Source of the DNA: Moraxellaceae bacterium
Lineage (GTDB): Bacteria; Pseudomonadota; Gammaproteobacteria; Pseudomonadales; Moraxellaceae
Assembly: GCA_021156385.1 (NCBI GenBank)
Contig: JAJNDL010000009.1
Coordinates: forward strand, 1-15,861
Reading direction: 5' to 3'
Length of the DNA stretch: 15,861 nt
Made by a program: the position numbers and the translations under genes. Positions 1,457-15,861 of this stretch are shown here, piece after piece. The notes beneath the pieces are model-generated. The model was not told where the DNA came from. It saw only the letters and a program-made list of their open reading frames with translations, and did no database searches. Within the stretch, counting starts at the first letter, position 1, and every line of letters begins with the position of its first letter.

Positions 1457-2140
1457 CTAGCGCGTCACCCAGCCGCCGCAGAGCGGGAACACCTGGCCGA
1501 CGAAGCAGTTGGCTGCCTCGCTGCAGAGATAGGCGGCGAATTGCGCGTCCTCGCGCGCGGCGACGAGGCGGCCGAGCGGCACCTCGCGCCGCAGCCGTTC
1601 CAGGAAGGCCGGGTTGGCCTGCACCTGCGGCGGAAAATACGTCGGGTTCTCCACGAAGTTCTGCGCGATGGCGTTGACCTGCACGTTGTGCGACGCCGCC
1701 TCCACGCCCACCGCCTGGATGTAGGCGAGCTGCGCGCCGCGCGCGGCGCTGTAGCTGGAGGCGCGCTTCATGCCGCGCAGCGCCGCGGCCGAGCCGATGG
1801 CCAGCACCTTGCCGGCGCGCCGCTCCAGCATCTGCGGCAGCACGGCGCGCGTGAGGCGCATGAGCGGATGCACCAGGGTCGCGAACACGTTCTCCCACTC
1901 GAGGTCGTCGACCTCGGTCACCGCCGTGGCGGGCGCGGGCAGGGCGAGGTTGGCGAGCAGCACGTCGATGCGCCCGGCGTCGCGCACGATGGCCTCGGCG
2001 GCTTCCGGTTCGCGCAGGTCGCCGGTCACCGCCAGCACTTCGGCGCCGGCCTCGGCGAAGACCTCGCGCAGCGCGGGACCCATGAAGGCGTCGGCCTGGG
2101 TGAGGAGTACCCGTTTTCCGGTGAGCGTGATCACGGTCAT
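1457..2140 (-). CDS. Halohydrin dehalogenase-like SDR-fold protein
   Basis: This 227-residue protein has the short-chain dehydrogenase fold but the sequence signatures of halohydrin dehalogenases (haloalcohol/epoxide lyases, EC 4.5.1.-), which interconvert vicinal haloalcohols and epoxides without a nucleotide cofactor. Near the N-terminus T14-QADA-F19-M-G21 fits T-X4-F-X-G, which replaces the glycine-rich NAD(P)-binding loop. The catalytic segment S117-X12-Y130-X3-R134 has Arg where ordinary SDRs have Lys. The C-terminal part (AIAQNFVENPTYFPP, then VGQVFPLCGGW) parallels the halide-pocket loop and C-terminus of HheC, whose triad is S132/Y145/R149, a constant offset of 15. The ATG at 2140 is chosen because GGAAG lies 7 bases upstream and the longer reading adds only low-complexity residues. 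No pathway partners are adjacent, and the native substrate is unknown. It could also be a related non-dehalogenating member. Confidence 0.82.
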   Translation of the reverse strand: MTVITLTGKRVLLTQADAFMGPALREVFAEAGAEVLAVTGDLREPEAAEAIVRDAGRIDVLLANLALPAPATAVTEVDDLEWENVFATLVHPLMRLTRAVLPQMLERRAGKVLAIGSAAALRGMKRASSYSAARGAQLAYIQAVGVEAASHNVQVNAIAQNFVENPTYFPPQVQANPAFLERLRREVPLGRLVAAREDAQFAAYLCSEAANCFVGQVFPLCGGWVTR

Positions 2141-2571: not shown

Positions 2572-2626
2572 GGCGGAACTTGGCGCATGAAGTGTGCTCT
2601 GTCCGGCTTCTCCTTCTCCCTTGCTC

Positions 2627-2635
2627 TGCTAGGAT
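2627..2635 (+). promoter_or_regulatory. Possible extended -10 element for dps
   Basis: TGCTAGGAT (TG at 2627-2628, hexamer TAGGAT at 2630-2635) looks like an extended -10 box about 40 bases upstream of the dps start. No convincing -35 is present, which is compatible with either extended -10 or stationary-phase sigma recognition. Judged by eye. Confidence 0.3.
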
Positions 2636-2676
2636 GGGCCAACCTCTTCCATTCTTTCTTTCGCCATGGAATCGCG

Positions 2677-3213
2677 ATGAAAAACGCCAAGAAAGCCGCC
2701 TCCCCCAAGAAGACCGCAGGCGCCCGCAGGAACGGTGCAGGACTCCCCATCGACATCGGCATTTCCGAGGAACAGCGCGGCCGGATCGCCGCCGGCCTGT
2801 CCCGGCTGCTGGCCGACAGCTACACGCTCTACCTGATGACGCACAACTTCCACTGGAACGTCACCGGGCCCATGTTCAACACGCTGCACGTCATGTTCAT
2901 GCAGCAGTACACCGAGCAGTGGAACGCACTCGACATGATCGCCGAGCGCATCCGCGCGCTGGGCTTCCCGGCGCCCGGCACCTACCGGGAGTTCGTCAAG
3001 CTCGCCTCCATCAAGGAGGTCGAGGGCCAGCCGAAGGCGCTCGACATGGTCCGGCACCTGGTGGCGGCGCAGGAGGCCACGGCGCGCACCGCGCGCAGCC
3101 TCTTCGACCTCGTCGGCGATGCCAACGACCAGCCCACCGCCGACCTGCTCACCCAGCGCCTCGACGTGCACGAGAAAACGGCCTGGATGCTGCGCAGCCT
3201 GCTCGAGGAGTGA
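2677..3213 (+). CDS. dps: Dps-family DNA-protecting ferritin-like protein
   Basis: Dps proteins form 12-subunit cages that oxidise and store iron with H2O2, and many bind DNA. The protein is 178 residues, typical for the family. Residues 1-19 form a Lys/Arg-rich tail (K2, K5, K6, K11, K12, R17, R18), the kind that mediates DNA binding. The four-helix core from about residue 30 contains H56[15 protein letters not shown] and [12 protein letters not shown]. The ferroxidase positions equivalent to E. coli H51, H63, D78 and E82 are present as H59, H71, D86 and E90. The position of D67 is Met75, so the intersubunit site is altered. The start at 2677 gives the basic tail; an in-frame upstream extension would add a hydrophobic stretch not expected in Dps. 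The ribosome site (GGA) is weak. A TetR gene follows 10 bases after the stop. Confidence 0.9.
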
Positions 3214-9809: not shown

Positions 9810-9824
9810 GCGCGACTGTCGTGC
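9810..9824. promoter_or_regulatory. Imperfect palindrome upstream of homospermidine synthase
   Basis: GCGCGACTGTCGTGC is an inverted repeat about a central T with one mismatch. The same element, perfect and longer, occurs at 13667-13683 upstream of another gene. It lies 170 bases upstream of the hss start, within the 207-base gap after the hybrid kinase. An operator is possible; only the sequence similarity is observed. A TTGCGC overlaps its left side (9808-9813), but no -10 is well spaced from it. Confidence 0.3.
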
Positions 9825-9994
9825 ATCGCACCGGATATTCTCCCGCGCTTTTCCTGGCGGACCGCGCCGCGCCGGCGTCGTGGTCAGCTCAGGAATTTCA
9901 CCTATCCTTGATCAGACGCCCAAGGACTGACTGGAGCCTGGCTCGTCAGTGTGCTGTCGGCTTTCCGATTCCGCGCCGGATAGGAGAAGAGCAC

Positions 9995-11407
9995 ATGAAG
10001 ATTCCGCGCCTGCCGCTCGCCGGCCGGCTGGTCATGGTGGGCTGCGGCAGCATCGGCCAGGCCATGCTGCCGCTGCTGTTCCGCCACTTCGACATCACGC
10101 CCGACCGGGTCGCCATCCTTGCCGCCGACGTCGACGGCAGCGAGATCGCCCGGCAGTACCAGGTCGGCTATTCGCTGCTGCCGCTGACGCCGGAGAATTT
10201 TCGCAGCGTGCTCTCGCCGCTGCTCGGGCCGGGCGATTTCCTGCTCAACCTCTCCGTCGACGTCGGCAGCGCCGACCTCGTGCAGCTCTGCGCCGAGCGT
10301 GGCGTGCTCTACCTCGACACCAGCACCGAGCCCTGGGCCGGCGGCTACACCGACCTCGCGCGCTCGCTCGACCAGCGCTCCAACCATGCCCTGCGCGAGC
10401 AGGTGCTGGCGTTGCGCCGCGAGCGCGGGAACGGTCCCACGGCGGTGATCACGCAGGGCGCGAATCCCGGCCTCGCCTCGGCCTTCGTCAAGCAGGCGCT
10501 GCTCAACCTCGCCGCCGACCTGCAACTGGACAGCGCGACACCGCGCGCGGCGGAGGACTGGGCGCGGCTCGCGCATCGCCTCGGCGTCAAGGTCATCCAT
10601 GTCGCCGAGCGCGACACGCAGCTCTCGGCGCGGCGCAAGCAGCGCGACGAGTTCGTCAACACCTGGTCGGTGACGGGCTTCATCGGCGAGGGCCTGCAGC
10701 CCTCCGAGCTCGGCTGGGGCAGCCACGAGAAACACTGGCCGGCGGATGCCGAGCGCCACGCCCACGGCACGGGCGCGGCGATCTTCCTGAAGCGGCCCGG
10801 CGTCGCCACGCGGGTGCGCAGCTGGACGCCGCTGGAAGGGCCCTACCAGGGCTTCCTCATCACGCACGCGGAGTCGATCTCCATCGCCGACCACCTCGCG
10901 CTGTACGAGGGCGGCGAGCTGCGCTACCGGCCCACCGTGCACTACGCCTACTACCCCTGCGACGACGCCGTGCTCTCGCTGCACGAACTGGCCGGCCGCA
11001 ACTACCGCGCGCAGGAGCGCAAGCGCATCCTGCGCGACGAGATCAGCACCGGCATGGACGAGCTCGGCGTGCTGCTCATGGGCCACGCGCGCACCGCCTA
11101 CTGGTTCGGCTCGCGCCTCAGCATCGGGCAGGCGCGGCAGCTCGCGCCCTGCAACAACGCCACCAGCCTGCAGGTGGTGGCCGGCATCCTGGGCGGCATG
11201 GCCTGGGCGCTGGCGAACCCGGAAGCCGGCATCGTCGAGCCGGACGACATCGACCACGACACCGTGCTCGCGGTGGCGCGGCCCTATCTCGGCGACGTGG
11301 TCGGCGTGTACAGCGACTGGACGCCGCTGGCCGGGCGCAGCCGCCTGTACGAGGAGGGCATCGATGCCGGCGACCCCTGGCAGTTCGTGAACTTTCGCGT
11401 GACCTGA
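9995..11407 (+). CDS. hss: Homospermidine synthase
   Basis: This enzyme makes sym-homospermidine from putrescine (or spermidine plus putrescine) with NAD+ as a bound hydride shuttle (EC 2.5.1.44). The 470 residues are close to the 477 of the Blastochloris viridis enzyme. The Rossmann loop G16-C-G-S-I-G21 opens the protein. Key residues known from the B. viridis structure are found with a constant offset of 5: E112 in TSTEPW (E117), E205 in HVAERDT (E210), W224 in NTWS (W229) and E232 in IGEG (E237). The ATG at 9995 follows TAGGAGAAGAG, a good ribosome site. It presumably forms an operon with the amine-oxidase-like gene 22 bases downstream. Homospermidine is a polyamine of many alpha- and some gammaproteobacteria, so this is a metabolic marker of the host. 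Confidence 0.95.
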   Translation: MKIPRLPLAGRLVMVGCGSIGQAMLPLLFRHFDITPDRVAILAADVDGSEIARQYQVGYSLLPLTPENFRSVLSPLLGPGDFLLNLSVDVGSADLVQLCAERGVLYLDTSTEPWAGGYTDLARSLDQRSNHALREQVLALRRERGNGPTAVITQGANPGLASAFVKQALLNLAADLQLDSATPRAAEDWARLAHRLGVKVIHVAERDTQLSARRKQRDEFVNTWSVTGFIGEGLQPSELGWGSHEKHWPADAERHAHGTGAAIFLKRPGVATRVRSWTPLEGPYQGFLITHAESISIADHLALYEGGELRYRPTVHYAYYPCDDAVLSLHELAGRNYRAQERKRILRDEISTGMDELGVLLMGHARTAYWFGSRLSIGQARQLAPCNNATSLQVVAGILGGMAWALANPEAGIVEPDDIDHDTVLAVARPYLGDVVGVYSDWTPLAGRSRLYEEGIDAGDPWQFVNFRVT

Positions 11408-11429: not shown

Positions 11430-12609
11430 GTGCTACTCGAGAAAGAACGCGGTCTCACCGAGAATTCCTACTACGAAGCCGGTGTGCGCCGGCCCGAACC
11501 GGCGCTGCCGCTGGCCGGGCGCGTCACGGCCGACGTCTGCGTGGTCGGCGGCGGCTACGCCGGGCTCTCCGCCGCGCTGGAGCTGGCCACGCACGGCTAC
11601 AGCGTGGCGCTGCTGGAGGCGAAGGCCATCGGCTGGGGCGCCTCGGGGCGCAACGGCGGCCACGTCATCGTCGGCTACGCCACCGACCACGTCATGGAGG
11701 ACCAGCTCACGCCGGCGCAGGCGCGCGAGGCCTGGGACATCTCCGCGGAAGGCATGCGCCTGCTGCGCGAGCGCATCGCCTACCTCACGCTGGCGATCAA
11801 CGCGCGCAAGGCGCATGCGCTGCAGCGCTGGGCCGAGCGCGTGCTTTCTGCCTACGAATATCCGCTGCACTGGATAAGCCCGCAGGAAATCGGCGACTGG
11901 GTGGCCAGCGAACGCTTCCATGCCGGCACCTACGACGCCGATTCCGGCCACCTGCATCCGCTCAAGTTCTGCCTCGGCCTGGCCGAGGCGGCGCGCCGCA
12001 CCGGCGTGCACTTCTACGAACATTCGCCGGCACGGCACATCGAGCGCCAATACCGTGGCGCCCGAGCTCACCGGCCGCATCATGCCGGTCGGCACCTACA
12101 TCGTCGCCACCGAGTCCATGGGCCCGGAGCGCGCCGCCGCGCTGATCGCGAAGCGCGCCGCCGCTTCCGACACCAACTTCGTGCTCGACTACTTCCGGCT
12201 GAGTGCCGACCACCGCCTGCTCTTCGGCTCCGGCGACAGCTACAGCGCCGCCACGCCGCGCCAGCTGGTCGGCAAGATGCAGAAGCAGATGCTGGCGGTG
12301 TTCCCGCAGCTCGCCGACCTCGGCATCGACTACGCCTGGGGCGGCTTCGTCGACGTCACCATGAACCGTGCGCCGGACTTCGGCCGCATCGGCGACAACA
12401 TCTACTTCCTGCAGGGCTTCTCGGGGCACGGCCTCGCACTCACCGGCATGGCCGGCAAGCTGGTGGCCGAGGCCATCAACGGCCAGGCCGCGCGCTTCGA
12501 CCTGTTCGCCCGGATCAAGCATCTGCCGTTCCCGGGCGGCGCCTGGATGCGCACGCCGGCGCTGGTGCTCGGCATGTGGTGGTTCCGCATGCGCGACCTG
12601 CTGCTCTAG
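11430..12609 (+). pseudogene. PuuB-like FAD-dependent amine oxidase, disrupted by internal deletions and a frameshift
   Basis: The family (gamma-glutamylputrescine oxidase/DAO fold) oxidises amines with FAD. The 5' part (GTG at 11430, GGAG 5 bases upstream) shows the FAD-binding motif DVCVVGGGYAGLSAALELA, a Glu-ending strand (ALLEAKAIGWGASGRNGG), and GTYDADSGHLHPLKF. At about 12050 the frame changes, and homology resumes in the +1-shifted frame with TVAPELTGRIMPVGTYIVATES, ending in FSGHGLALTGMAGKLVAEAINGQA and TAG at 12609. Against E. coli PuuB (426 residues) about 30 residues are missing at the switch, the stretch that returns to the FAD-binding fold. About 11 more are missing after RERIA near 11780, in frame. 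Both halves are otherwise well conserved, so the lesion is recent or an assembly artefact. An intact copy would be a plausible polyamine oxidase partner of hss. Confidence 0.85.
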
Positions 12610-12629
12610 GGCGCGGCGGCAGCAGGAAG

Positions 12630-12661
12630 GGCGCCTAACCTGAAGCGCCTGAGCCGTTTTT
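12630..12661 (+). terminator. Possible rho-independent terminator after the oxidase gene
   Basis: GGCGC (12630-12634) and GCGCC (12645-12649) form a short stem with a 10-base loop, followed after 7 bases by TTTTT (12657-12661). The stem is short and the T-tract is displaced, so this is a weak call, but it is the only T-tract near the end of the hss operon. Confidence 0.3.
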
Positions 12662-14049: not shown

Positions 14050-14460
14050 TCAGCCCAGCTCGCGGAAGCTGCGCAGGTACTGCATCGCCTCGGGTCCGGC
14101 CGCCACCAGCTCGGCCAGTCCGCGCCGGCGATCGAAGAAATCCACGAAACCCTCCGGACGGGCCTGGTCGCACAGGCGGCGGAAGCCCATCGACCAGTTC
14201 CCGAAGGAACGCTCCTCCACCTTGCTTTCGTCCAGCACCATGGCGCCGCCATGGCGCGGGTCGCGGGCAATCCGCCACCAGGTGGCGCGTACCGCATCCT
14301 CCGGCCCCTCCAGGAACTGCAGGAAGTCCCCGTCCCGGTAGATCAGCATGCCGGTGATGCCGGCGCGCAGGTTGTTGCGCCGGGACTGCGCGAGCAGGGC
14401 ATCGAGGTCGGCCGGGCCGAATTCGCGGGTGGCGTGACTGACATAGACGAGGCTGAGCAT
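14050..14460 (-). CDS. BLUF-domain blue-light sensor protein
   Basis: BLUF domains bind FAD non-covalently and sense blue light through proton-coupled electron transfer between a Tyr and the flavin. This 136-residue protein is a stand-alone short BLUF: residues 1-95 are the domain, and about 40 helical residues follow. The photoactive residues correspond to those of PixD/Slr1694 with a constant offset of 2: Tyr6 (Y8), Asn30 (N32), Gln48 (Q50), Trp89 (W91) and Met91 (M93). The motifs are LSLVYVS, NNLRAGITGMLIY, FLQFLEG and FGNWSMGF. No output domain is fused, so it must act on a partner protein. The ATG at 14460 has GGAG upstream at slightly long spacing; longer in-frame starts add unrelated residues. 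Confidence 0.95.
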   Translation of the reverse strand: MLSLVYVSHATREFGPADLDALLAQSRRNNLRAGITGMLIYRDGDFLQFLEGPEDAVRATWWRIARDPRHGGAMVLDESKVEERSFGNWSMGFRRLCDQARPEGFVDFFDRRRGLAELVAAGPEAMQYLRSFRELG

Positions 14461-14900
14461 GGCGGCTTTCTCCGGAAGACAGTTCCACCGTTGTCGGCAA
14501 TCCGGCGCGGCAAGGCGATTGGACAAAGCCGGACAGGCGGGCCGCCGGCGACCGGCGTGCGCAGGCAGGCGACAGGCGACGTCCATGCCACCGCAGCGGA
14601 CGCCGCCCTGGGCCTAAAGTAGGGTGGCGCGGACAGGGAGGGCGCCGCAGCACGCGGTGTGCGCACAGGAAGCAGCAGCAAGGTTTCCTCCCCGCGATCC
14701 CGGGTGCCGCCGGCCGCCTCGAGCGCTGCCGCCGGCGTCATTCCATGACCCTGTCGCCTGCAGGAGCCCCGGCGCATGTACGACTTCGCATCGAACGGGC
14801 GGCCGAGCCCGCCCCGTATCCGGTGCCAGCCTGATGGCGCGGCCCTGAAACCGCGCCGCCCGCACGGCATGCGGGTGCGGATGCCGTGCGGTGGTGCCGC
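14461..14900. other. Intergenic region, divergent between the BLUF and HEAGH genes; no gene seen
   Basis: These 440 bases show no supported coding sequence; the open frames present are low-complexity. A possible plus-strand -10 (TAAAGT, 14614-14619) is preceded by no good -35. The main structure is a hairpin at 14860-14891, listed separately. The region probably holds the promoters of both divergent genes. Confidence 0.5.
14860..14891 (+). promoter_or_regulatory. Strong hairpin directly upstream of the HEAGH membrane-protein gene
   Basis: CCGCACGGCAT (14860-14870) and ATGCCGTGCGG (14881-14891) are perfect reverse complements with a 10-base loop GCGGGTGCGG. The stem ends 9 bases before the ATG at 14901, where a ribosome site would be expected. 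No T-tract follows. It could shield translation initiation or be a binding site; that is inference. Confidence 0.4.
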
Positions 14901-15571: not shown

Positions 15572-15861
15572 TCATTCGTCGAAGGTGGCGCACTCCGCAT
15601 TCGAGGGCGTGTGCTTGCAGCGCACGCGCTTGAGGATGTTCATCATGGTCGGCTCGTACACGCCCTCGCGCGTCATGTAGAGGCGCGCCTCGCGCAGCAT
15701 GTTGGAATAGCGCGCCTTCTCCTCGGCGGAGAGATCCACCCAGAGGTTCTTCGGGATGTCCTTCTCGGCCATCTTCAGCACGGCGATCAGCTCGTCGATG
15801 TGCTGCAGGCCGTACTCGCGCACCTGCGCGAGGCGCAGGTCGAGGTCGGGGATCTTCGGCA
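15572..15861 (-). CDS. Hypothetical protein, nearly complete, start just outside the window
   Basis: About 96 residues are visible. The frame runs to the edge as (x)PKIPDLDLRLAQVREYGLQH, and the last two bases read TG before CCG AAG. An A at the next position outside would make the start MPKIPDLDLR, giving a 97-residue protein. A GTG at 15823 is a weaker alternative. The protein is helical and charged (HIDELIAVLKMAEKDIPKNLW, LSAEEKARYSNMLREARLYMTREG) and ends with RVRCKHTPSNAECATFDE, with two Cys 11 residues apart. There is no signal peptide or membrane segment in what is visible. I do not recognise the family. A clear terminator follows it. Confidence 0.7.
   Translation of the reverse strand, partial: PKIPDLDLRLAQVREYGLQHIDELIAVLKMAEKDIPKNLWVDLSAEEKARYSNMLREARLYMTREGVYEPTMMNILKRVRCKHTPSNAECATFDE

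Follow-up and report, generated by a model that had tools for sequence, protein, structure and literature searches.

The locus considered here raises the question of whether a protein built on the fold of the short-chain dehydrogenases (SDRs) is an ordinary NAD(P)-dependent SDR or a halohydrin dehalogenase (HHDH), and what such an enzyme would be for. The window, that is, the whole stretch of DNA analysed, comprises 15,861 nucleotides, and the gene lies on its minus strand at 1457–2140 as an intact frame of 227 aa plus stop, with the ATG at 2140 and the stop at 1457–1459; the plus strand at 1457–2140 does not give the HHDH protein. The coordinates in the earlier note therefore hold an intact frame, but the note had left the minus strand unstated. 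A Shine-Dalgarno-like AGGA precedes the ATG on the minus strand, and a promoter and terminator scan returned nothing exceeding chance. From its sequence and its structure model, the gene very probably encodes a cofactor-free D-type HHDH, with a probability of about 0.93.

It has been reported that HHDHs follow the rule T-X4-F/Y-X-G plus S-X12-Y-X3-R, and SDRs the rule T-G/A-X3-G/A-X-G plus S-X10-14-Y-X3-K, as given in PMC11976700 and PMC4989007. Judged by its letters and this published rule, motif 1 of the window protein is TQADAFMG, residues 14–21 (T-X4-F-X-G; 2078–2101, minus strand), and motif 2, read from the letters, is SAAALRGMKRASSYSAAR, residues 117–134 (1739–1792, minus strand), the predicted catalytic triad; the patterns claimed earlier, T14-X4-F19-X-G21 and S117-X12-Y130-X3-R134, are both present letter for letter. 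The classical NAD(P)-dependent SDR motifs (T-G-X3-G/A-X-G loop and S-Y-K triad) are absent at residues 14–21 and 117–134, and four SDRs of the same genome have both SDR motifs. The loop 14–21 is predicted to be the nucleophile-pocket loop that replaces the SDR glycine loop. Meanwhile, alignment with HheC, HheA and HheD2/HheD8 points to a pocket loop, QNFVENPTYFPP, at residues 160–171 (1628–1663, minus strand), where the partners are P-N-Y-L in HheC and P-N-F-F-N-N-P-T-Y-F-P in HheA; this loop is predicted to form the halide/nucleophile pocket where SDRs have their P-G motif. The predicted pocket residues are common to the window protein, the HheD8-chloride sequence and the HheD2 sequence in the sequence alignment. 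In the same family comparison, S117, Y130 and R134 stand 15 residues ahead of HheC S132, Y145 and R149 (by alignment, counted on the 1pwx sequence); a constant 15-residue offset to the HheC triad had been proposed, and it holds for the triad and the N161-F162-V163 loop but not for motif 1, where T14 faces T7 of HheC.

These positions are strongly kept among relatives. In an alignment of 41 sequences, the window protein among them, T14, F19, G21, S117, Y130 and R134 show no variation in any of the 41, and the same is true of Q160, N161, V163, N165, F169 and P170 of the pocket loop. Both HHDH motifs occur in 80/80 related loci (the best 80 of 238 matching loci, the set used throughout) and in 120/120 proteins among the matches listed, the window's own counted, while none of the 5052 other ORFs in these loci (at least 70 aa, any frame) has the motif pair at a spacing of 50–160 residues; the pair is therefore not a product of chance. 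The S-Y-K form is present in each of five other SDR-like ORFs in these loci, three of which have the glycine loop too. Since the loci and the protein lists were picked by similarity and limited to the best matches, this describes conservation within the subfamily and is not a rule for all HHDHs.

The same conservation bears on the reading in which the protein is an ordinary NAD(P)-dependent SDR whose motifs have drifted by chance, because the HHDH motif forms are retained by every one of the related loci and listed proteins. Such an SDR would explain why the Pfam matches and the NCBIfam matches listed (25/188) are to SDR families and why several relatives bear the database name '2-keto-3-deoxy-L-fuconate dehydrogenase', a name that comes from one source; however, none of the 25 listed NCBIfam models reaches its own cut-off. 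In a search of sequences with solved structures, the top matches were 8xxb (1.3e-97), 7b73 (2.1e-92), HheB 4zd6 (3e-61) and its variant 5b12 (4.5e-60), followed by 6a41 (2.1e-30) and then by SDRs from 6e-23. Only D-type and B-type chains and 6a41 outrank every SDR, by sequence as by fold, which argues against an SDR; the HheA, HheC and HheG chains rank amid the SDRs in both comparisons and score no better than they do, which leaves the SDR reading some room. Identity to the window protein is 69.2% over 224 residues for 8xxb, a variant of HheD8, 64.8% over 219 for 7b73 (HheD2), 50.9% over 222 for HheB (4zd6), 31.9% over 226 for 6a41 and 27.8–29.1% for HheA, HheC and HheG, and four own-genome SDRs with the glycine loop reach 26.3–26.8% over the best BLASTP stretch.

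A tree of 34 rows (the window protein, seven PDB references, the four own-genome SDRs and 22 of the 80 loci) parts 30 HHDH rows from the 4 SDR rows by a 98/90 branch. Placement among NAD(P)-dependent SDRs, which had been named in advance as the outcome that would overturn the assignment, was thus not observed with respect to these four own-genome SDRs. Within the HHDH rows, HheA, HheC and 6a41 cluster together (99/98), and a D/B group of 26 rows includes the window protein (99/99), whose sister is L012, from a Moraxellaceae MAG (87%, 97/92).

An AlphaFold2 model built on 41 sequences has a mean pLDDT of 84.9, with low-confidence stretches at 120–125 and 222–227. When the model was compared by Foldseek, the nine top matches were HheD2, HheD8 and HheB chains with TM-scores by query of 0.88–0.91, and the model, which the earlier note had suggested building, came closest to HheD2 (7b73) and HheD8 (8xxb) at 0.90–0.91; next came 6a41 at 0.84 and FabG chains at 0.82–0.84. 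Because the Rossmann fold is common to SDRs, as the FabG scores illustrate, the fold alone cannot separate an HHDH from an SDR, and its occurrence in FabG and L-KDF dehydrogenase counts on the SDR side. With the two fingerprints, the 65–69% identity to two solved HHDHs, the tree and the fold comparison in agreement, an ordinary SDR is very improbable and the HHDH assignment made earlier is borne out.

The subtype is a further point. The protein belongs to subtype D by its identities of 69% (HheD8 variant) and 65% (HheD2), in a comparison that covered HheA, HheB, HheC, HheD2, HheD8, HheG and 6a41 chains; the 2016 review gives 57–95% identity between HheD19–38 and the verified HheD–HheD6 (PMC4989007). 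The conclusion of that review puts identities between HHDH subtypes below 30% (PMC4989007), and the 51% identity between the window protein and HheB conflicts with this figure for B and D. It can also be seen that HheB falls inside the D rows of the tree, at an unstarred fork (81/93), and the tree program warns that several branches are long and that false joining is possible. Both the fork and the 51% identity would suit an HheB-like, B-type enzyme, but HheD2 and the HheD8 variant are closer in identity, and the window loop QNFVENPTYFPP is D-like whereas that of HheB is QHWTQNKEYFWP. Since the HheB fork is unstarred and the branches are long, D was judged over B by identity and pocket loop, and a B-type enzyme appears highly unlikely.

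Comparison with known enzymes places the D-type protein further. According to its title, entry 8xxb shows halohydrin dehalogenase HheD8 with the mutations A69F/M124P/R127G, together with chloride, and over the aligned stretch its sequence differs from the L073 protein of Thauera aminoaromatica S2 at the A69F/M124P/R127G sites only. HheD8, crystallised in 8xxb with chloride, has the same motifs and the same pocket loop as the window protein; the differences are another host, other neighbours and ordinary sequence divergence. HheD2 (7b73), from a gammaproteobacterium, shares motifs and fold but has QNFVDNPTYFPE as its pocket loop; 7b73 is named as HheD2 in PMC9629495, and an earlier paper gives HheD2 the code 6qk3 (PMC7057212). 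HheB (4zd6, Corynebacterium sp. N-1074) shares both motifs and the fold but has Tyr in its motif 1. HheC (1pwx, Agrobacterium radiobacter) shares both motifs and an equivalent triad but is 29% identical and has a C-terminal extension; its gene reportedly shares an operon with that of an epoxide hydrolase (PMC11976700), unlike the window gene. The rarity implied in the earlier note is weaker than stated there, as the best 120 database matches listed are all at least 72% identical; D-type names had already reached HheD38 by 2016, when a review catalogued dozens of HHDHs (PMC4989007).

According to section 4 of that review, the Ser of HHDHs positions the substrate, the Tyr is the base, the Arg lowers the pKa of the Tyr, and the anion occupies the place of the SDR cofactor (PMC4989007). 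We infer by homology that this mechanism, with its activity and substrates, may be transferred to the window protein. S117 would position the substrate oxygen, and Y130, whose pKa R134 would lower, would deprotonate a vicinal haloalcohol, so that the alkoxide could displace the halide and form the epoxide. The halide would leave into a pocket made of the motif-1 loop 14–21 and the 160–163 loop, both of which would take the NAD(P) place of SDRs. In the reverse direction, an epoxide may be opened by halide, azide, cyanide, nitrite and similar anions.

The surroundings of the gene bear on its role. It was found that minC lies at 553–1329 on the minus strand (PF03775, PF05209; TIGR01222 over its cut-off) as a neighbour outside the enzyme system, that a small charged ORF of 69 aa lies upstream of the HHDH gene at 2252–2461 on the minus strand, with a nucleotide match in two same-genus genomes, and that a neighbouring Dps-like ferritin gene follows at 2587–3213 on the plus strand (PF00210; NCBIfam Dps match under its cut-off). 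The setting between minC and a stress-type locus is as first described. The absence of a xenobiotic pathway, also noted before, is upheld within the scan: no Pfam xenobiotic-degradation family occurs among the scanned frames, which comprise the window frames other than the small ORF, the minD fragment and 15572–15823. We take the sequence at the window start to be a minD fragment, and we likewise assign minD by eye in the same-genus genomes. In other parts of the window, a BLUF blue-light sensor protein is encoded at 14050–14463 on the minus strand (PF04940, 3.3e-30). A DAO FAD-dependent oxidoreductase is split over two overlapping plus-strand frames, 11430–12638 and 11920–12609, which match profile positions 1–186 and 213–352; the split is a frameshift, either real or an assembly error. 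The plus-strand frame 9997–11407 presumably, by its look to the eye, encodes a homospermidine synthase-like protein; it gave no Pfam match (E 0.001), and the longer frame 9821–11407 gave no NCBIfam match.

Within the genus the arrangement is not constant. In G004, whose HHDH match has the contig coordinates of L012, the HHDH gene comes after minD on the AraC side, whereas in the window the small charged ORF is on one side of it and minC on the other. At the nucleotide level, G002 matches the small ORF, minC, minD and AraC but not the HHDH gene, and it gave no match by protein at 1e-60 either. The locus is rearranged, and its place beside minC is therefore poor evidence of a functional link. 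As a separate observation, no minC relative was found (E <= 0.001) in 5/8 other same-genus genomes (G001, G003, G005, G006 and G007), one of which is 99% complete. An epoxide hydrolase relative (E <= 1e-20) occurs in 6/9 genomes of the genus, and none was found at this threshold in the window's own genome, which is 59% complete; that of G004, one of the six, is distant and lies on another contig (39% identity, 1.3e-23). A candidate halogenase in the own genome proves nothing, its one PF04820 match staying, at 20.3 bits, below the cut-off of 21.

The gene is also scattered. An HHDH match was found in 2/58 near genomes (E <= 1e-60), the window's own being one of the two and the second belonging to the eight further genomes of its genus, and in 4/398 genomes of the phylum, own included (E <= 1e-70), in a search that scored seven candidates per genome among the rows listed. 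The 80 loci are mostly from Pseudomonadota, with a few labelled Chloroflexota, Myxococcota, Bacteroidota or Thermodesulfobacteriota; because many loci are MAGs, some phylum labels may be binning errors. Only one of 72,556 plasmid records matched (E <= 1e-40), from Novosphingobium, at 45.5% identity. Patchy occurrence and differing places around the min genes would fit an accessory gene that moves. Most likely, the window gene is an accessory, horizontally shuffled gene for environmental epoxides or haloalcohols.

Another possibility is that the HHDH fold and pocket serve a different physiological reaction, dehalogenation being a side activity; this is unlikely. One example would be endogenous epoxides opened or closed with a natural anion under oxidative or light stress. 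The neighbouring Dps-like ferritin, the BLUF protein 12 kb away and the finding that none of the scanned window genes encodes a xenobiotic enzyme would suit it, and other loci offer further hints. A relative of the EphA-like hydrolase of L021 lies directly upstream of the HHDH gene in 4/80 loci, all Pseudomonas/Halopseudomonas and of one lineage (L021, L038, L078 and L086); in the first three the two genes share four bases at the HHDH start, and in L086 the hydrolase gene ends 22 bases ahead. The best solved match of the L021 hydrolase is EphA (5cw2, 2.2e-79), followed by a soluble epoxide hydrolase, which we take to be the M. tuberculosis and mammalian enzymes, respectively. A BLUF relative occurs in the same four loci, further upstream of the hydrolase–HHDH pair. 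A fifth hydrolase match, in L082, is weak (7.7e-10), downstream and on the other strand; the upstream hydrolase of L025 is PcaD-like, with its matches below the cut-offs, and the upstream gene of L022 is a glycerophosphodiester phosphodiesterase. In another single lineage, a photolyase gene lies 3' of the HHDH gene on the same strand in 4/80 loci, from Thauera or unnamed Proteobacteria (L022, L023, L028 and L069). By eye, we take a second photolyase-like protein to be encoded downstream in all four, and an AhpF-like gene to lie beyond the photolyases in L022, L023 and L028. The 2016 review, in its treatment of the role, leaves the physiological function of HHDHs open and does not exclude other functions, and it lists only two HHDH genes then known in an epoxide hydrolase operon, which may overlap the present loci (PMC4989007).

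Against a different reaction, each of these links stays within one lineage and may go back to a single ancestral arrangement, and 72/80 loci gave neither arrangement in a search seeded with these genes, the weak L082 match being counted among the 72. No widely conserved partner gene emerged across the best 80 of 238 loci: besides HHDH, the largest homology cluster covers 9/80 loci, neighbour families account for at most 8/79 immediate upstream genes (alpha/beta hydrolase families) and 5/77 immediate downstream genes (GGDEF and DUF2288, five each; Pfam photolyase families, three), and no family exceeds five in a scan of 148/309 nearby ORFs. The broader proposal that D-type HHDHs would deal with natural epoxides under oxidative or light stress, rather than degrading man-made halogenated chemicals, and that the gene would sometimes stand in an operon translationally coupled with an epoxide hydrolase and near blue-light genes, is quite unlikely. 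An accessory gene for environmental epoxides or haloalcohols is the reading retained. In the literature searched, which held few subscription papers, nothing else was found on the natural role or genomic context of HHDHs or on the HHDH of Thauera aminoaromatica; PMC4989007 addresses the role.

The window gene is a correctly read, ordinary further member of HHDH subtype D; it is not new, because structures have been solved before for two of its close relatives. It adds one more D-type HHDH of possible use in biocatalysis, and a further genome whose HHDH stands apart from any recognisable haloalcohol pathway. The question of the natural role of HHDHs is real and is not advanced by the window; the four loci in which the gene is coupled to an epoxide hydrolase suit tests of that role better.
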